From NCBI GenBank assembly GCA_039679645.1, contig JBDKUO010000040.1:1-40946 (forward strand): a stretch of 40,946 bases of DNA. Direction: 5' to 3'. This DNA comes from Armatimonadota bacterium. GTDB taxonomy: Bacteria; Armatimonadota; UBA5829. The first letter of the stretch is position 1. Each line of letters starts with the position of its first letter. Both the position numbers and the translations under genes were made by a program. This document shows positions 2,836 to 31,824 of the stretch, piece after piece. The notes below the pieces were generated by a model. The model did not search any database, was not told where the DNA came from, and worked only from the letters and a program-made list of their open reading frames with translations.

Positions 2836-2862
2836 ATATAAAGTCAGGAGATGACAATCAGG

Positions 2863-4470
2863 ATGAATAGACCATGCCCGAAGTGGCTTGAAAACGCAGT
2901 GTTTTATGAAATATACCCGCAGAGTTTCTGTGATTCCAATGGTGACGGGATCGGCGATCTGCAGGGGATTATTGAGAAACTCGATTATATAAAAGACCTC
3001 GGATGCAACGCCATCTGGATGAACCCATGCTTTTTGTCGCCGTTCCAGGATGCAGGTTATGATGTCGCAGACTTCTATCGCATAGCGCCTCGCTACGGCA
3101 CTAATGATGACGCAAAGAAGCTCTTTGCAGAAGCCGCAAAGCGCGGCATAAAGGTCTGCCTGGACCTTGTGGCGGGCCATACATCCATTGAGCATGAGTG
3201 GTTCAAGCAATCGTGCAAGCCTGAGCATAACAAATATTCAAACTGGTATGTCTGGACCAACAGCATCTGGGACGCCGGAGACTGGACCGGCAGGTTTGTT
3301 GGCGGATACGCTCAGCGCGATGGCCAGTATTTGAACAACTTCTTTTATTGCCAGCCGGCCTTAAACTATGGGTTCGCCAACCCTGACCCGAACAAACCCT
3401 GGCAGTTGCCAATGGATCACCCAGACTGCCTTGCAGTGCGGCAGGAACTCAAAAACATAATCAAGTTCTGGCTGGATATGGGCGCAACGGGTTTTCGCGT
3501 GGACATGGCCAAATCACTTATCAAAAATGACCCCGATTCGGCAGTTGTCGCAAAGCTGTGGAATGAAGTGCGCGAATGGCTAGATGCCGATTACCCGGAG
3601 GCTGTTCTTATCTCGGAATGGGGAGACCCTGTCATTGCAATTCCCGCAGGTTTTCATATCGACTTTTTGTTCCAACTTCATGTTGGTTACAACTCGCTCT
3701 TCAGATATGAGCGGGACCAGTTCTGTAACCCCACACCCGAAAACCACAGCTTTTTCCGAAAAGAAGGCAAGGGTGATATCACTCTATTCCTCGACCAGTA
3801 TATGAACTACTACCGCAAGACAAAAGATAAAGGATATGTATCGCTGATAAGCGGCAACCATGATATAGGGCGGTGCTCACAGGGATGTGACAGCGAAGAC
3901 CTCAAATTGATATTCGCGTTCCTGCTGACTATGCCGGGCGTGCCGTTCATATATTACGGCGATGAGATTGGAATGCGCTATCTGAGCGGTCTGCCGTCCA
4001 AGGAAGGCGGGTTCCACCGCACGGGCGCACGCACGCCGATGCAGTGGTCAGCCGAAGCCAATGCGGGCTTTTCGACTGCAGACCCGTCGAAGCTCTATCT
4101 GCCGGTAGATCCGTCACCGGATGCGCCGAATGTAGCCGACCAGCAGGGCAAGCCGGATTCACTTCTGGAGACTGTCCGCGCGCTCATAAAGCTGCGCAAG
4201 GATAACCCAGCGCTGTGCGCCGACGGAGAGTTCAGCCCGGTCTACTGGGAGCCGAACGGGTATCCGTTTGTTTTTCTTCGAACTCTGAACGGTGAGAGAA
4301 TGCTGGTGGCGTTTAATCCGTCTGGCAAGCCTGCAGAGGTTGAGTTCCAGATCACCGGTTCAGGATTTAAGAACGAGCTGATGATGGGTAAAGGAGCACA
4401 TATTGCAGAGTCGTCAGGTAAGATAAAGCTGAAGATGGACGGAGTGTCGTACGGCGTTTTCAAGCTTTGA
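2863..4470 (+). CDS. GH13 alpha-glucosidase/trehalose synthase-like enzyme
   Basis: A cytoplasmic 535-residue enzyme of glycoside hydrolase family 13, with a (beta/alpha)8 barrel and C-terminal beta domain; it acts on alpha-glucosidic bonds of short oligosaccharides, trehalose or sucrose-like substrates. The four conserved regions are visible: DLVAGHTS (region I, about residue 101), GFRVDMAKS with the nucleophile Asp (about 214), LISEWGD with the acid/base Glu (about 252), and SGNHDIG with the third acid. Region I has Gly where NH would be usual. There is no signal peptide. ATG 2863 lies 12 bases after AGGAG; ATG 2851 abuts that site directly and would add four residues. The domain B segment and WLENAVFYEIYPQSF start resemble oligo-1,6-glucosidase and trehalose synthase subfamilies; the exact specificity is not resolved. 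Confidence 0.88.
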   Translation: MNRPCPKWLENAVFYEIYPQSFCDSNGDGIGDLQGIIEKLDYIKDLGCNAIWMNPCFLSPFQDAGYDVADFYRIAPRYGTNDDAKKLFAEAAKRGIKVCLDLVAGHTSIEHEWFKQSCKPEHNKYSNWYVWTNSIWDAGDWTGRFVGGYAQRDGQYLNNFFYCQPALNYGFANPDPNKPWQLPMDHPDCLAVRQELKNIIKFWLDMGATGFRVDMAKSLIKNDPDSAVVAKLWNEVREWLDADYPEAVLISEWGDPVIAIPAGFHIDFLFQLHVGYNSLFRYERDQFCNPTPENHSFFRKEGKGDITLFLDQYMNYYRKTKDKGYVSLISGNHDIGRCSQGCDSEDLKLIFAFLLTMPGVPFIYYGDEIGMRYLSGLPSKEGGFHRTGARTPMQWSAEANAGFSTADPSKLYLPVDPSPDAPNVADQQGKPDSLLETVRALIKLRKDNPALCADGEFSPVYWEPNGYPFVFLRTLNGERMLVAFNPSGKPAEVEFQITGSGFKNELMMGKGAHIAESSGKIKLKMDGVSYGVFKL

Positions 4471-4524
4471 ATAGCTGAGAACCTGGAACCACAGATTATC
4501 AAGACAGAAGTTTTGTTTTTTTCG

Positions 4525-4551
4525 GGAACCTATTTTTCCTAACTCAGCGTA
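4525..4551 (+). promoter_or_regulatory. ECF-sigma type promoter of candidate small RNA 1
   Basis: CGGGAAC (GGAAC at 4525-4529) and CGTA (4548-4551), separated by 18 bases. It resembles the promoters before the ECF sigma gene, htrA and candidate small RNA 2, but the spacer is one base longer. Confidence 0.5.
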
Positions 4552-4557
4552 ATGATA

Positions 4558-4633
4558 AAAGAAGCAACAAACGACCTTCTTTTCATTCTACCTCCTTTCT
4601 TTGACCCTGACCATCCGGTCAGGGTTGTTTTTG
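4558..4633 (+). ncRNA. candidate small RNA 1 with anti-Shine-Dalgarno tract
   Basis: No coding gene fits here. From the expected start about seven bases after CGTA, the RNA would be about 75 nt: a 5' hairpin (AAAAGAAG paired perfectly with CTTCTTTT), an unpaired pyrimidine tract containing CCTCCTTTCT at 4591-4600, and an intrinsic terminator. CCTCCTTTC equals the 3' end of 16S rRNA, so the tract is complementary to purine-rich ribosome binding sites. The same order of parts recurs 146 bases downstream. Small RNAs made by envelope-stress sigma factors that mask ribosome binding sites are known in other bacteria; that this is one is inference from architecture. Confidence 0.55.
4604..4633 (+). 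terminator. intrinsic terminator of small RNA 1
   Basis: Nine-base-pair perfect stem ACCCTGACC/GGTCAGGGT (4604-4612 with 4617-4625), a four-base loop, then TGTTTTTG. It may also end read-through from the GH13 gene. Confidence 0.85.
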
Positions 4634-4670
4634 TACACCTGACTCTTAATTTTAAGATTTTCATATACCG

Positions 4671-4696
4671 GGAACGTACAAAATGTGATATGCGTA
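4671..4696 (+). promoter_or_regulatory. ECF-sigma type promoter of candidate small RNA 2
   Basis: CCGGGAAC (GGAAC at 4671-4675) and CGTA (4693-4696) with a 17-base spacer, identical in layout to the promoters before the ECF sigma gene (31660) and htrA (30380). Confidence 0.6.
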
Positions 4697-4702
4697 GAAT
4701 AA

Positions 4703-4783
4703 ACTGACAAAGATACTGGTTATCTTTTCTCCTTTCTCCTCCTTTCCTTCGACCCCGGTCAACTAGATCGGGGCTCTTTTTTG
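4703..4783 (+). ncRNA. candidate small RNA 2 with anti-Shine-Dalgarno tract
   Basis: A second transcript unit built like the one just upstream. After the ECF-type promoter come a hairpin (AAAGATA paired with TATCTTT around a CTGGT loop), a pyrimidine tract with CTCCTTTC then CCTCCTTTCC (4738-4747), and an intrinsic terminator; predicted length is about 80 nt. The hairpin and terminator sequences differ from copy 1 although their positions match, so structure and the CCTCCTTTC tract seem to be what is kept. The distance from CGGGAAC to CCTCCTTTC is 68 bases in copy 1 and 69 in copy 2. Confidence 0.55.
4753..4783 (+). terminator. intrinsic terminator of small RNA 2
   Basis: Stem CCCCGGTC/GATCGGGG (4753-4760 with 4766-4773, one G-U pair), loop AACTA, then CTCTTTTTTG. 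It ends three bases before the stop codon of the convergent phosphorylase gene. Confidence 0.85.
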
Positions 4784-4785
4784 TA

Positions 4786-6087
4786 CTAATATGTCAGCTC
4801 ATGTATAAGTGGCGGGACTATCGAGACATCACCTATGGTATATGCTTTACAAACAGCCGACGCGACTTCGGATGTCTTCGATTCGTCGTTTGAGTAAAGC
4901 TCGGCCAATGCCTCGCCATTCTCGACTCTATCGCCAAGCTTCTTATTTGTAATTATGCCGACCGCTGGGTCTATAGAGTCTTCTTTACGCTCGCGGCCCG
5001 CGCCCAGCATGCATGCGGCCCGTCCGATAAGAGCGCAGTCGACCTCAGAGACAAACCCTGATCTCTCACTTACGACATCATACTTGTATTTCGCTTGGGG
5101 TAGCAGAGTATAATCATCAATCACGGCGGGATTGCCATCCTGAGAAGATATGATCTCTGCAAACTTCTTCAGTGCGCTTCCATTATCGAGTGATCCGGAC
5201 GCTATGGCGCGACCTTCGTCCAGGGACTTGCATTGTGCAGCCATGTATAATATTATAGCCGATAGCTCTACGCATAGATGTCTGAAATCTGCCGGGCCAT
5301 CACCTTTGAGAGTGTCAATCGCCTCGGCAACCTCCAGAGCATTGCCTACAGCCCTGCCCAGTGGCTGATTCATGTCCGTGATTGCAGTGCCGACTTTACG
5401 CCCCAGGTTTGTGCCGATTGCGATCATAGTCCGGGCAAGCTCCCTGGCTCGCGGAAGATCATGCATGAATGCTCCCGAGCCGACTTTAACGTCCAGCAGG
5501 ATAATATCGCTCGAACAGGCTATCTTCTTGCTCATAATGCTCGCGGCGATCAGCGGAATGCTTTCGACAGTGGCCGTGACATCGCGCAGAGCATAAATCT
5601 TCTTATCGGCGGGCACTATATCATGCGTCTGGCCTGCTATCGCCGCGCCTATATCGTTCACCTGTTTTACAAACTGGTCTGGACTAAGCGCCATATTGAA
5701 GCCCGGGATGGACTCGAGTTTGTCGAGAGTGCCGCCAGTAAATCCCAGACCTCTGCCGGACATTTTAGGCACAGCCAGACCGCATGACGCCATGACCGGG
5801 ATTACGACGAGTGTGGTCTTGTCCCCCACTCCACCCGTGCTGTGCTTGTCCACCTTTGTTTTGGATATTGACGATAAGTCTAATACTTCGCCGCTGTCGA
5901 TCATAGCCTGGGTCATGGCGGAGGTCTCGGCAAAGCTCATACCGTTGATATACGCAGCCATAAGAAATGCCGACATTTGATAATCTGGAACCTCACCTGC
6001 TGCATAATCCATTACAATTCTGGATATTTCACCATTGGTAAGCTCACGGCAGTCTCTTTTGGCGGCAATGATATCTTGTATCCTCAT
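4786..6087 (-). CDS. pdp: pyrimidine-nucleoside (thymidine) phosphorylase
   Basis: A cytosolic enzyme that splits thymidine, deoxyuridine or uridine with phosphate to the free base and (deoxy)ribose-1-phosphate in nucleoside salvage. The 433-residue length and three-domain order match the family: an N-terminal helical domain, the phosphate-binding signature VDKHSTGGVGDKTTL, the SGRGLGFTGGTLDKLESIPG block, the KVGSGAFM loop, and the C-terminal PYNP domain around YDVVSERSGFVSEVD. The ATG at 6087 is chosen because AGGAG lies seven bases upstream. It could equally be called deoA; substrate range (thymidine only, or uridine too) cannot be told by eye. It converges on the candidate small RNA pair. 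Confidence 0.92.
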   Translation of the reverse strand: MRIQDIIAAKRDCRELTNGEISRIVMDYAAGEVPDYQMSAFLMAAYINGMSFAETSAMTQAMIDSGEVLDLSSISKTKVDKHSTGGVGDKTTLVVIPVMASCGLAVPKMSGRGLGFTGGTLDKLESIPGFNMALSPDQFVKQVNDIGAAIAGQTHDIVPADKKIYALRDVTATVESIPLIAASIMSKKIACSSDIILLDVKVGSGAFMHDLPRARELARTMIAIGTNLGRKVGTAITDMNQPLGRAVGNALEVAEAIDTLKGDGPADFRHLCVELSAIILYMAAQCKSLDEGRAIASGSLDNGSALKKFAEIISSQDGNPAVIDDYTLLPQAKYKYDVVSERSGFVSEVDCALIGRAACMLGAGRERKEDSIDPAVGIITNKKLGDRVENGEALAELYSNDESKTSEVASAVCKAYTIGDVSIVPPLIHELTY

Positions 6088-6115
6088 CAGTTCACTCCTA
6101 ATAAGAGCCAAGAGC

Positions 6116-25712: not shown

Positions 25713-26333
25713 ATGAATGACATGAATAACAACAACGCTCCCGAAACGGAGCAGCAAACCAATATCGAATCCGAAGCTGTCCCGGTCGGAATTGCGCGTA
25801 TCAGAGACGAGTGGCGCGCCCATGGCCTGACAGAGAAACCCGCAGCCAGCCCAGACGAGGAGCCGGAGCCGATCATTTTTTCTGAAGTGGACGGAGGAGC
25901 CGGCGTAGGAGACTATACGCTTGAATGTGATGTGATTATGAACCGCCTCGCGCTGTCGCATGAGGCTATGGACAGGCTCATCTCAAGCGGGGAGATCGAC
26001 TCGATCCTGGTTCAGGGGCAAGACGGCAAGCCAAAACGCATGCTCAGCGAGTCTTCCGTAAAACGTTTTGAGAAGGACTCGGCAATAGACCCGCAGGCGC
26101 TCACGCGCGCGGCAAAGGCTATGGCTGACGCTACGCTGGTGGAATCTGTGCAGGAACTGACCGCTGAGATCGATGAACTACGAAACACACAGGGCAAAGT
26201 ACTGCAGCAGATGAAGGACATTTTGCTCCTGGAGGTGCGGAACCTCAAAGAGCAGGAACGCGACCTCACCTCGTTTGTGTATGAACTGGCTCAAGAAGTT
26301 AGAAATGCTATAGGCAAGAAGCAGAAAAAATAA
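25713..26333 (+). CDS. HTH_17/MerR-like DNA-binding protein with coiled coil
   Basis: A 206-residue protein. An acidic disordered N-terminus (NNNNAPETEQQTNIESE) leads to a stretch like an excisionase/MerR helix-turn-helix: IMNRLALSHEAMDRLISSGEIDSILVQGQDGKPKRMLSESSVKRFE, about residues 80-125. It is followed by a long helix with heptad spacing (VESVQELTAEIDELRNTQGKVLQQM to the end), probably a coiled coil. ATG 25713 is preferred to GTG 25698, though neither has a clear ribosome binding site. It diverges from the hydrogenase array, so it might regulate it; that is a positional guess only. Confidence 0.6.
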   Translation: MNDMNNNNAPETEQQTNIESEAVPVGIARIRDEWRAHGLTEKPAASPDEEPEPIIFSEVDGGAGVGDYTLECDVIMNRLALSHEAMDRLISSGEIDSILVQGQDGKPKRMLSESSVKRFEKDSAIDPQALTRAAKAMADATLVESVQELTAEIDELRNTQGKVLQQMKDILLLEVRNLKEQERDLTSFVYELAQEVRNAIGKKQKK

Positions 26334-26360
26334 TGGCCGGGATTTTTTGATATCCCGGCC
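26324..26360 (-). terminator. terminator after the first prepilin-like gene
   Basis: Stem GGCCGGGAT/ATCCCGGCC (26335-26343 with 26352-26360). On the minus strand it is followed by ATTATTTTTTC, which overlaps the end of the convergent coiled-coil gene. Confidence 0.75.
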
Positions 26361-26377
26361 AACGGATAGAATGTTAA

Positions 26378-27118
26378 TTATTTTGGCTTAGGTATGGTGT
26401 GCTTCTGATAGGCCGGATTGGGCGCCCAGTTGGCTCTCTCACTCATCAACTGTTTCTTATCGCCGTACTTCACATGGCCATCAGCATATGCAACATTTGT
26501 CCCTTTGTTGTGAACATCACCTGGAATATCTCCATTATACTCGCAGTAGCTATCATTCATTGAACCAGCATCTTCTTGCATAAGAAGCATAATTTTTGAT
26601 GAACGACCTGCTGTAGCGGGCTCAAGCTTCATAGTACCTCTTGGATCATCTCCACCCAATTCAGGCGGAACCGCACCGGGAAGTGTGCCGATATCTTTAT
26701 TCATAGAGTAAGATATGTTTGAAATACTACCGCGGGTGCCATTTGCCGCTGTTCCAGGCTCAACACTTTTCCTTTTGTCGGAAGGGCACTTATATACTTT
26801 TGTATTGCGGACATATTGGAAAAGTCCACCCTTTGTTACATCTACATCAAGCCTTCCGGCATTAGACGCCGCGAGATTAACACCTTGAAAATCATATAGG
26901 GTAGGATATAGGAATGGATAATGAATAGGTGACCCCCCATTGTTATCTTGCACATACTGCTGGATGCCCAGTGCCATCTGCTTCAAGTTGTTCAGACATT
27001 GAGTCTGTCTTCCCTTCTCTTTTGCGCTTGAAAGAACGGGAAAGAGTATTGCCGCCAAGATAGCGATGATGGCAATAACCACCAGCAACTCAATTAGTGT
27101 GAACCCTCTTCTCTTCAT
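26378..27118 (-). CDS. prepilin-like DUF1559 protein (first)
   Basis: A 246-residue type-IV-pilin-like protein. The N-terminus [20 protein letters not shown] is a class III signal peptide and membrane helix with the GFTLIE cleavage/methylation motif. The rest is the DUF1559 (SBP_bac_10) domain with [20 protein letters not shown] and the C-terminal [12 protein letters not shown] (H-X9-DG motif family). These proteins are abundant in Armatimonadota and Planctomycetes. ATG 27118 follows AGGGGG; it is read alone and ends in a terminator. It likely forms a surface or secretion-associated pseudopilin. Confidence 0.9.
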
Positions 27119-28835: not shown

Positions 28836-30305
28836 TTAATCCATCGTCATTTCAATTATGACACTGCGTTCTCCGCGCTGCACTACGACTATCGACGTGT
28901 CACCATTCTTGAGCTTGCTTACTGCTTTTGCGAATGACGCAACGCTGGTGATGGGAGTATCATCGATCTCCGTGATAACATCCTTGACAGCAAAGCCTGC
29001 GCGCTCGGCGGGTGTGCCCGGCTCCACTTTACGAACCACAACTCCCTGAATATCCTTGTCAACACCGATTGAAGACGCAATCTCGGGGGTCAGCGGCTGG
29101 ACAGTAAGGCCTGTCTTGACCGAATCTTCATCGGAGGTCGATGCGCCATCCAATTTGTCTGGGACTTCACCGACCTTCACGGTCAGTGTCTTCTCGGCTT
29201 TTTCGCGGATCACAGTCACCTTAACACTTGTATTGGGCGCTATAGTCTCGACTGCATGCCTTAGCTCTGCCGCATTATTGGTCCGCTTGCCGTTCACGCT
29301 TGTTATTACATCTTTTACCTTGATGCCGCCCTTGGCTGCGGGAGAATCACTCTGGATATCCTCAACAAGCACGCCGTCTTTTGCCCCAAGCTTTTCGGAT
29401 AGTGTGGAAGTAAGGTCTTTCATACTGACTCCCAGGTATCCTCTGACCACTTTGCCCTTTTCGATAAGTTGAGCCATAACAAACTTCGCGGTATTGGCCG
29501 GAATCGCGAAACCAATACCGACATTGCCGCCCGATGTGGAATAAATAGCGCCATTGATTCCCATCACCTTGCCGTCGAGATCGACCAATGGACCGCCGGA
29601 GTTGCCCGGATTGATTGAGGCATCAGTCTGGATTATCTCAGGATACGGCAGATCCTCCTGTGAATTGGCTCCCTCAACTTCTTTGCGGATAGCGCTCACA
29701 ACACCCACAGTCATAGTGTTTCTTAGTTTGAACGGGGCACCCATAGCAACCGCCCACTGGCCCACTTTTACCTTATCCGAATCTGCAAACTGTGCAGCGG
29801 GAAGGTCTTTTGCGTCAATCTTAACAAGAGCCAGGTCAGTTCGGGGGTCGAGAAACACTTTGCCCTTGAACTCACGCCCATCCAGGAGTTTGACGGTGAC
29901 TCTGTCCGCATCAGCCACAACATGGCTGTTGGTTAGAATATAGCCGTCAGAACGAACAATTATTCCCGAACCGCTGGCTATCTGAGTCTGTTTCTGAGTC
30001 TCCTGGGACTGCCGTGGTATACTGAACGGGCTTAAGTTGAATAAATTATCAAAGCCCGCAAATGGATCACGCACTTCGACAGTCTTTTCTCTTGTGATAT
30101 AAACGACACTTGGGCCGACTTTATCGGCAACATCTTCGAAAGCAGTGCGCCAGTCCGACATAGCCGCATCTTTTGTCGCGGCAATAGCCGGTGCGGATGA
30201 GTGATGATAATAATTTGCTGCAAGTGAAAAACCGAGCGCAACGCTCAGAACGCACACAACCAAAATGTTAGGTTGTTTCAGCGCTTTACTAAACGCCGTT
30301 CGCAT
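28836..30305 (-). CDS. htrA: HtrA/DegP-type serine protease with two PDZ domains
   Basis: A 489-residue envelope quality-control protease of family S1C. It has an N-terminal anchor (ILVVCVLSVALGFSLAANYY), the catalytic triad H128 (TNSHVV), D157 (RTDLALVKI) and S236 (NPGNSGGPLVD), then PDZ1 (GYLGVSMKDL onward) and PDZ2 (GLTVQPLTPEI to the end). It should face the periplasm or cell surface. ATG 30305 follows AGGAGG. Its promoter 30355-30380 has the same motif as that of the ECF sigma gene, so it belongs to the sigma regulon; sigma, anti-sigma and htrA lie in tandem. Confidence 0.95.
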   Translation of the reverse strand: MRTAFSKALKQPNILVVCVLSVALGFSLAANYYHHSSAPAIAATKDAAMSDWRTAFEDVADKVGPSVVYITREKTVEVRDPFAGFDNLFNLSPFSIPRQSQETQKQTQIASGSGIIVRSDGYILTNSHVVADADRVTVKLLDGREFKGKVFLDPRTDLALVKIDAKDLPAAQFADSDKVKVGQWAVAMGAPFKLRNTMTVGVVSAIRKEVEGANSQEDLPYPEIIQTDASINPGNSGGPLVDLDGKVMGINGAIYSTSGGNVGIGFAIPANTAKFVMAQLIEKGKVVRGYLGVSMKDLTSTLSEKLGAKDGVLVEDIQSDSPAAKGGIKVKDVITSVNGKRTNNAAELRHAVETIAPNTSVKVTVIREKAEKTLTVKVGEVPDKLDGASTSDEDSVKTGLTVQPLTPEIASSIGVDKDIQGVVVRKVEPGTPAERAGFAVKDVITEIDDTPITSVASFAKAVSKLKNGDTSIVVVQRGERSVIIEMTMD

Positions 30306-30354: not shown

Positions 30355-30380
30355 GACGTGAGACTGGCCTTAGTGGTTCC
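30355..30380 (-). promoter_or_regulatory. ECF-sigma type promoter of htrA
   Basis: On the minus strand CGGAACC, a 16-base spacer after GGAACC, and CGTC (30355-30358). The layout equals that of the promoter of the sigma gene, allowing for one C/A difference in the -10. Confidence 0.65.
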
Positions 30381-30463: not shown

Positions 30464-31006
30464 TTATCTTACGTTGATGCTTGCCAATTGGAGATTTGAA
30501 TGCGTAAGCTCACCGACGTTATCCCTGACCTTAAGCGGCTGAGGCTGGTCAGTCAGGATGTATGAGTCTGCGGATATATTCGGGGAATATTTGATATCGG
30601 ACGAATACGAGCCGTATTGCGACATAGCCATTTGCTGACCGGGCTGAGTGCGCACGCCATCAACCCCACCGGCAGACATTATCACAAGGGCAAAACCCGA
30701 CACAGCCAGAGCGGCCGCAACCGGACTTAGTTTCCGGTGCAGGAGATGAACCGCACAGTTGAGTATTTTCTGATATCGCGGCACTTCGACGGCATCCAGA
30801 TTTGTCATTATTGAAGCGGCAAAATCCGCTCTGGGCTTAACGGCATCGAGCCTGAAGAGCATCTGTTTCACCAGTCTTATCGATTCATATTCTTCGGCGC
30901 AATCCGCGCAATCGCCCAGATGTCTTCTGATCTCGAGCATTTCCACACCTGTAAGCTCACCATCTACATAAGCGGACATTAAACTCACTACTCGTCTGCA
31001 ATTCAT
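30464..31006 (-). CDS. ZAS-type anti-sigma factor
   Basis: A 180-residue anti-sigma factor. The N-terminal zf-HC2/ZAS domain has C3, H29, C33 and C36 (HLGDCADC, the H-x3-C-x2-C motif), binding zinc and the sigma factor. A membrane helix at about 92-112 (SPVAAALAVSGFALVIM) anchors it, followed by about 65 residues outside the membrane. It starts 15 bases downstream of the ECF sigma gene, the usual partner order, and regulates it by sequestration. Confidence 0.88.
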   Translation of the reverse strand: MNCRRVVSLMSAYVDGELTGVEMLEIRRHLGDCADCAEEYESIRLVKQMLFRLDAVKPRADFAASIMTNLDAVEVPRYQKILNCAVHLLHRKLSPVAAALAVSGFALVIMSAGGVDGVRTQPGQQMAMSQYGSYSSDIKYSPNISADSYILTDQPQPLKVRDNVGELTHSNLQLASINVR

Positions 31007-31021
31007 AGCCTGCCACCTACC

Positions 31022-31615
31022 TTACACAAACTGACCAGCATACACTTTTAACTTGTTTCTCAATAACCGTCTGCCCCTGTGCAATCGCGACCTGACAGTG
31101 CCGATATTAGTATCGGTAACCTCCGCGATCTCTTCATAGGACAAACCCTCGATATCGGCATAAATCACCGTCAGGCGAAATACCTCAGGCAAAGTGTCCA
31201 GCGCCTCCTGAATACGGCTGTCCATCTCTCTCGATAGAACAGTCTCCTCAGGTCCGCATGCCTTGTCCGCGATATCCATCGCCACCTCGCCCTCGGCAGT
31301 CGCCACCGGCTGGTCCAGTGACCGGATCATCGCCTTGGGCTTCCGGCGAAGCTTGTCTATAAACACGTTGGACATTATCTTATATAGCCAGCTATCAAAA
31401 GGAAGTTCCCGTCGATATTGCCCAAAAAACCTGAATGCCCTAATAAACGCATCCTGAACCAGGTCCTCCGCGTCCGCATGATTGCCGGCCATTCTGTATG
31501 CTATGTTGTACGCCTGCTTATGATAACGTTCGACAAGCGCGTCAAACTCTCTCCTGTCATCGCTCCGAGCCACGTCGGAAACGGTATCAGCAAGTTCAAC
31601 CAAAGCGGCCTCCAC
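31022..31615 (-). CDS. ECF (SigW/RpoE-like) RNA polymerase sigma factor
   Basis: A 197-residue sigma factor with region 2 (FDALVERYHKQAYNIAYRM, AEDLVQDAFIRAF, LPFDSWLYKIMSNVFIDKLRR) and region 4 (ALDTLPEVFRLTVIYADIEGLSYEEIAEV, GTVRSRLHRGRRLLR). It directs transcription of envelope-stress genes when its membrane anti-sigma releases it. GTG 31615 follows AAGGAAGAAAG. A CGGGAAC-N17-CGTA promoter stands directly upstream, showing likely autoregulation, and the same promoter motif precedes htrA and two candidate small RNAs in this window. Confidence 0.93.
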   Translation of the reverse strand: MEAALVELADTVSDVARSDDRREFDALVERYHKQAYNIAYRMAGNHADAEDLVQDAFIRAFRFFGQYRRELPFDSWLYKIMSNVFIDKLRRKPKAMIRSLDQPVATAEGEVAMDIADKACGPEETVLSREMDSRIQEALDTLPEVFRLTVIYADIEGLSYEEIAEVTDTNIGTVRSRLHRGRRLLRNKLKVYAGQFV

Positions 31616-31634: not shown

Positions 31635-31660
31635 TACGCTAGGCAGCGAGCACGAGTTCC
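31635..31660 (-). promoter_or_regulatory. autoregulatory ECF-sigma promoter
   Basis: On the minus strand CCGGGAACT (GGAACT at 31655-31660), a 16-base spacer, and CGTA (31635-31638), ending 20 bases before the start of the ECF sigma gene. This is the classical ECF layout. Confidence 0.7.
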
Positions 31661-31824
31661 CGGTTATACCCGGTCAAATTACCTGTTTTTCAGATGAATT
31701 TCGCGCTAACCCTAACCTCGCATTGCCCAATACACCATCATTATACTAAGGTATGCCGCGCGTTACAAGTCTGAGTCAGGTCGATACTGTGTCGAAAAAA
31801 GTTATCACTTTGGGTTTAAAATAC

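Follow-up and report, generated by a model that had tools for sequence, protein, structure and literature searches.

Tandem small RNA genes with promoters of the extracytoplasmic function sigma type in an Armatimonadota bacterium: a putative noncoding arm of an envelope-stress regulon

Two small RNA (sRNA) genes lie in tandem on the forward strand of a 40,946-nucleotide stretch of DNA from an Armatimonadota bacterium, at positions 4523-4640 and 4669-4787. This stretch, referred to here as the window, is part of contig C40 of genome G000. Each gene consists of a promoter of the extracytoplasmic function (ECF) sigma factor type, a 5' hairpin, an exposed CCUCCUUUC tract and an intrinsic terminator. 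Judged by their sequence and its conservation, these units and their relatives in other genomes are almost certainly genuine sRNA genes, conserved and equipped with ECF-type promoters. It is fairly likely that the two independently transcribed genes (class A), with two further classes (B and C), make up the noncoding part of an envelope-stress regulon under an ECF sigma factor and act on envelope mRNAs. In the proposed mechanism, a zinc-finger anti-sigma factor would release the ECF sigma factor encoded at 31022-31615, which would transcribe the sRNAs from GGAAC-N17-CGT promoters. The cytosine- and uracil-rich (CU) tract, which copies the anti-Shine-Dalgarno sequence of 16S rRNA, would be held open between hairpin and terminator and would pair, perhaps with Hfq, with the purine-rich ribosome-binding sites of selected mRNAs. 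This pairing would block translation, chiefly of outer-membrane and exported proteins.

Architecture and conservation of the tandem pair

The promoter of sRNA1 (4523-4551) has a -35 element CGGGAAC (4523-4529) and a -10 element CGTA (4548-4551), with a spacer of 18 nt between GGAAC and CGT. The predicted transcript (4557-4634, about 77 nt) contains a hairpin (4558-4582), the CU tract (about 4583-4601, with CCTCCTTTC at 4591-4599) and the terminator (4602-4634; stem 4602-4627, then a U-tract). The promoter of sRNA2 (4669-4696) has CGGGAAC at 4669-4675, CGTA at 4693-4696 and a spacer of 17 nt. Its predicted RNA (4703-4784, about 80 nt) contains a hairpin (about 4706-4729), the CU tract (about 4729-4750, CTCCTTTCTCCTCCTTTCCTTC) and a terminator (4753-4784; stem 4753-4773, then a U-tract) that abuts the 3' end of a convergent gene at 4786. 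The predicted folds show the hairpin, a single-stranded CU tract and the terminator, with energies of -21.4 kcal/mol (z -3.1) and -19.5 kcal/mol (z -2.1) for the two units. The window contains CGGGAAC-N14..20-CGTM three times, at 4523 and 4669 on the forward strand and at 31662-31635 on the reverse strand, against 0.08 expected, and none of 100 shuffles reaches three. Likewise, CCTCCTTTC is found in the window at 4591 and 4738 only (0.30 expected), and the terminator stems of both units were detected, with 0.4 expected in shuffles. The sequence GTAC directly follows the U-tract in most class A terminators of the genus (4634 and 4784 in the window) and also follows the -35 element of sRNA2. A search of a plasmid collection gave no match to the window DNA.

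A BLAST search with the 276-base region gave matches in all four other species of the genus. Both units are adjacent in G004, G003 and G002, and sRNA2 stands alone in G001. Across the five species the promoter of sRNA2 is invariant, its hairpin and CU tract are almost invariant and the spacer between the units varies. sRNA1 is kept in G004, G003 and G002, with the -10 element and GGGAAC of its promoter kept in the sister species. The terminator stems of both sRNAs carry compensatory changes in five-sequence MAFFT alignments.

Covariance models were built for sRNA2 (R1), for sRNA1 (R2) and family-wide from a 21-copy alignment, A6 (R3). Beyond the genus, R1 and R2 match in two more genera of the family (g3, three species; g4, two species) and, elsewhere in the order, in two further families (G015 and G017; G016 and G018), and G013 has its own tandem class A pair. 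In total, class A comprises 20 copies with conserved architecture in three families. Every pair of the terminator helix (8 of 8) shows double-sided changes in A6, and the helix is 98.2% paired; for the 5' helix the figures are 6 of 7 pairs and 89.5%. Each whole-structure measure lies above all shuffles (0/500). As A6 was fitted to the structure and its 21 copies include two later placed in class B and one in class C, the pairing and covariation figures are an upper estimate. The small MAFFT alignments show the same stem pattern. Low-scoring R1 matches (e.g. G009, L066) were rejected as sRNAs, being antisense to a strong Shine-Dalgarno (SD) site of an exported protein.

These results agree closely with the first-pass annotation of the window. 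It had described the order CGGGAAC, CGTA, 5' hairpin, tract and terminator in both units, which is present at the positions it gave, with distances from CGGGAAC to CCTCCTTTC of 68 and 69 bases, and we measured the same values. It held that the architecture is kept while the stem sequences differ, which the compensating stem changes beside an unchanged CU tract bear out. The covariance search in relatives that it proposed recovered the units, with compensating changes in the paired stems. It had also considered that the region might be read only as the 3' end of a GH13 gene; that reading frame stops at 4470 and both units lie outside the gene.

A related explanation is that the hairpins are mere 3' terminators of the neighbouring genes, or attenuators, and that the promoter likeness is due to chance. 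The upstream neighbour is the GH13-family gene (trehalose synthase-like; 2851-4470, forward strand) and the downstream neighbour a convergent pyrimidine-nucleoside phosphorylase gene (4786-6111, reverse strand), which is syntenic in family f1. The units do sit between convergent genes in f1, behind the phosphorylase gene. In families f2 and f3, however, class A retains its promoter, tract and terminator but follows a 2-oxoacid dehydrogenase E2 gene, as judged from the translated ends of the neighbours. It is thus the unit that is conserved and not its location. Class B is located elsewhere again, and the promoter statistics also speak against chance. A role as gene terminators only was ruled out by the relocation of the whole unit in other families, and the explanation as a whole, attenuators included, is exceedingly improbable.

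The ECF sigma factor and the wider set of sRNA genes

The presumed activator is encoded in the same window. An ECF sigma factor gene (SigW/SigE-like; 31022-31615, reverse strand; TIGR02937 above cut-off), with orthologues in the class, is preceded on the reverse strand by CGGGAAC-N17-CGTA (31635-31662), the same motif as in the sRNA promoters. Downstream of it lies the gene of a zinc-finger anti-sigma factor (zf-HC2, with a weak RseA_N match; 30464-31006, reverse strand). Also downstream of the sigma gene is an HtrA/DegP-type periplasmic protease gene, at 28836-30305 on the reverse strand. The first-pass annotation had equated the sRNA promoter motif with the motifs of both the sigma gene and htrA. 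For the sigma gene this is correct and extends to nearly every genome of the class; the site before htrA (30356-30380, reverse strand, 51 nt before the htrA start) is a looser, promoter-like match, CGGAAC-N17-CGT. All 28 genomes of the class encode a homologue of the sigma factor (E < 1e-30), and in 25 of them, including all homologues of at least 54% identity, GGAAC-N15..19-CGT is located 8-22 nt before the sigma reading frame. The three exceptions are G018, where the best match is paralogue-like, and G008 and G014, two of the three species of genus g5, which have a GAAAC...CGTA variant before the sigma gene. The shared motif suggests that the ECF sigma factor of the window very probably drives the sRNAs. 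No class A, B or C sRNA was detected in genus g5 or family f5. As f5 has retained the sigma factor and its promoter, the autoregulated sigma factor is older or more widespread than the sRNAs.

The set of sRNA genes in G000 is larger than the pair first noticed and comprises at least five genes in three classes. When 291 genomes of the phylum were searched with R3, strong matches were confined to the same taxonomic class, and a second group of matches lay on contig C24 of G000 and elsewhere. This second group, class B, consists of GGAAC-N17-CGT, UAGCAAACCUUCCCACCCUCUUUUCUC near the 5' end and a terminator, without a 5' hairpin. In G000 two copies stand in tandem on C24 at 26300-26420 and 26433-26550 (L126 and L151), each with an ECF promoter and the UAGCAAACCUUCCCACCCUCUUUUCUC tract; in G019 as many as four stand in tandem. 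The 18-mer CTTCCCACCCTCYTTTCT detected class B in 17 of the 28 genomes of the class; the other 263 genomes of the phylum gave no match, nor did the reversed control. The copies were collected by the tract alone, and the promoter was not used. GGAAC-N15..19-CGT is located upstream in 32 of 34 copies, compared with 15 of 6660 random 60-nt genome segments (0.23%). By a strict rule, which about 12% of shuffled flanks pass, 30 of 34 copies have a terminator, with 27 different stems. The class B tract, CUUCCCACCCUC, is kept nearly letter for letter between families and is not a 16S copy.

Class C has a CUCUCCUUUC tract and the promoter GAACAT-N-GCGTC. It is located on the reverse strand of contig C31 of G000 at about 1870-1990 (L127). 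Loci L135, L136, L142 and L067 also belong to class C, which occurs in G001, G002, G003 and G005, beside the same gene where this is readable. In G000 the pattern of promoter and pyrimidine run occurs at two places besides the two copies in the window and the two of class B, and nowhere else. A pattern scan of contigs returned eight Armatimonadota-type contigs plus seven scattered, chance-like others. In other classes of the phylum (L101 in G117, L106 in G219 and L108 in G037), GGGAAC...GT-type promoters precede short hairpin units with CCUCC, which lies inside the terminator loop in L106 and L108; these may be unrelated sRNAs of the same design.

The CU tract and its predicted targets

The metagenome-assembled genome has no 16S rRNA gene, so the tail sequence was taken from six relatives, in which the gene ends in GGCTGGATCACCTCCTTTCTAAGGA (tail GGAUCACCUCCUUUCU). 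The class A tract, for example in G003, G016, G018 and G015, has 12 nt in common with this tail, TCACCTCCTTTC (UCACCUCCUUUC), and the earlier claim that the pyrimidine tract equals the 3' end of 16S rRNA is upheld over these 12 identical nucleotides. Hfq is encoded in 24 of the 28 genomes of the class, including G000.

Duplexes were predicted between the tracts and 661 translation starts, sampling about 24% of G000, and exported proteins were called by a simple signal-peptide rule. The start ranked first of 661 for sRNA2 belongs to a Porin_4 protein (contig C39 of G000, 109560-111590) with a signal peptide and a C-terminal Phe, at -31.3 kcal/mol (median -11.9). Its translation initiation region is AGAGGAACAAGTAGGAGGGCGGAAGGAGAATG, and the predicted pairing spans about 30 nt, past the SD core. 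The porin of G004 is 72% identical and its predicted pairing with sRNA2 is unchanged. Other predicted starts for sRNA2 are those of an OMP_b-brl beta-barrel protein (-23.4 kcal/mol) and an ammonium transporter (-27.9 kcal/mol). The start of the AmtB ammonium transporter (G042/AmtB; contig C42 of G000, 16211) is predicted to pair strongly with every tract of classes A and C (-25.8 to -27.9 kcal/mol). Upstream of the porin gene, both in G000 (C39, before 111590, L234) and in G004 (C13, L283), stands GGGAAC-N16-CGTC (CGTCTATAAAATAGAGG). Its occurrence in both species suggests that the porin may itself belong to the sigma regulon, in which case an incoherent loop is possible. The predictions do not single out the sigma mRNA as a target of negative feedback, since pairing with its leader ranks only 44 (sRNA1) and 65 (sRNA2) of 661.

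In these computations the sRNA2 tract forms more stable duplexes with the starts of exported proteins than with other starts (p = 2.6e-4 for sample 1, 0.052 for its replicate and 2.4e-4 for the two pooled), and the pooled effect persists when pairing with the 16S tail is regressed out (p 7e-4). We regard this tendency as suggestive; it is moderately significant. From the modelled duplexes, there is a good probability that the sRNAs repress mRNAs by pairing at ribosome-binding sites, and we lean, with less assurance, towards envelope or porin mRNAs as the main targets. Several points weigh against this interpretation. For exported proteins, the replicate reaches only a borderline result. Part of the effect also appears with shuffled CU-rich tracts (mean difference -1.5 compared with -2.25 kcal/mol), of which 1 in 40 is as strong, and the start sites were picked partly by anti-SD energy, a bias built into the pooled test. 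The tract pairs weakly with any strong SD site, and its specificity is therefore uncertain. The genome has other ECF sigma factors that could recognise the sRNA promoter, and family f5 has the sigma factor and the promoter without a detected sRNA.

The sRNAs could be real and ECF-controlled and the tract could act globally, damping strong-SD mRNAs or lowering free Hfq or another RNA-binding protein in stress. The 12-nt identity to the 16S 3' end would fit such a role, as would the correlation between the pairing energies of the tract and of the 16S tail (r about 0.6) and the several tandem copies per genome, which imply a high dosage. However, the class B tract is equally strictly conserved although it is no 16S copy, and the predicted pairing of sRNA2 with the porin start extends beyond the SD core. 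Global action is in our view unlikely.

Less probable still, and doubtful at best, is that the sRNAs are sponges or partners of each other or of other RNAs, or that hairpin and tract bind a protein, with no block of ribosome binding. The class B tract is more nearly invariant between families than varied targets would need, and the hairpin of sRNA2 hardly varies within the genus. Moreover, a long antisense target of the class B tract was sought in the genus with up to two mismatches and rejected: its own genes were found with three scattered sites, one of which is a degenerate further copy. Against such a role, a single-stranded pyrimidine tract beside the terminator is typical of base-pairing sRNAs, and the hairpin differs freely between classes and is missing from class B.

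Comparison with known systems and significance

MicA and RybB are sigma-E-dependent sRNAs of enteric bacteria, about 70-80 nt long, each with its own ECF-sigma promoter and a terminator, that act with Hfq and repress porin mRNAs at the start. The Armatimonadota sRNAs share the ECF promoter, the length of about 70-80 nt, the terminator and Hfq in the genome, and repression at a porin start is predicted for them. They differ in the 16S-tail-like CU tract, the tandem copies, the three classes, the -10 element CGT and the phylum, and have no sequence relation to MicA or RybB. The first-pass annotation had called the pair functionally like MicA and RybB but unrelated in sequence. The second part stands, since the Rfam models of MicA and RybB are absent from the matches at E up to 10 and neither the window nor six relatives contain a match to any Rfam family at its gathering cut-off; the likeness in function is a prediction.

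FoxI and FoxJ of Fusobacterium nucleatum are sigma-E-dependent, have a C-rich seed and target the porin FomA (PMC11005410). Like them, the sRNAs described here would add noncoding genes to an ECF envelope response in a phylum other than Proteobacteria, with a C-rich seed and a porin as the (here predicted) target. Unlike FoxI and FoxJ, with their C-stretch seeds, they have CU tracts that copy the anti-SD sequence, several classes, tandem genes and predicted transcripts. In the Alphaproteobacteria, Cuckoo/CcsR and alpha-r14 (NfeR1) carry the anti-SD motif CCUCCUCCC in hairpin loops, and CcsR is under stress sigma control and is processed from a transcript shared with a DUF1127 gene (PMC10253847, PMC10746234). 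An ultraconserved unpaired anti-SD motif, diverging stems and tandem copies are common to both groups. In contrast, each copy in Armatimonadota carries a separate ECF promoter and terminator, and its tract, CUCCUUUCNCCUCCUUUC or CUUCCCACCCUC, lies between hairpin and terminator; the window sRNAs do not carry CCUCCUCCC in hairpin loops. LhrC1-5 of Listeria monocytogenes are multicopy, envelope-stress-induced sRNAs whose redundant CU-rich sites bind the start of a surface-protein mRNA (PMC4132741). They share the multiple copies, the (here presumed) induction by envelope stress and the CU-rich sites, which are here predicted to act at mRNA starts, and differ in being controlled by the LisRK two-component system. 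The Rfam model of LhrC (RF00616) scores 15.5 bits (E 8.1) against a cut-off of 110, and that of suhB/mmgR (RF00519) 21.4 bits against a cut-off of 41. The resemblance to MicA, RybB and FoxI is by convergence; none of these systems is related in sequence. We incline slightly to the view that, far from the Proteobacteria and Fusobacteria, several tandem sRNA classes evolved independently to expose a copy of the 16S anti-SD sequence and silence porin and envelope mRNAs in ECF stress.

No regulatory sRNA of Armatimonadota was found in the open-access papers searched. The sRNA classes are previously undescribed, and their general kind, the ECF-dependent envelope-stress sRNA, is already known. There are at least three classes with more than 50 copies and with defined promoters and tracts, and the lineages that have the sigma factor, with and without the sRNAs, offer a clean comparison. 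If the proposed reading is true, a third phylum combines an ECF envelope regulon with porin-silencing sRNAs, and does so with RNAs of unrelated sequence, which would argue that this circuit is favoured wherever an outer membrane exists.
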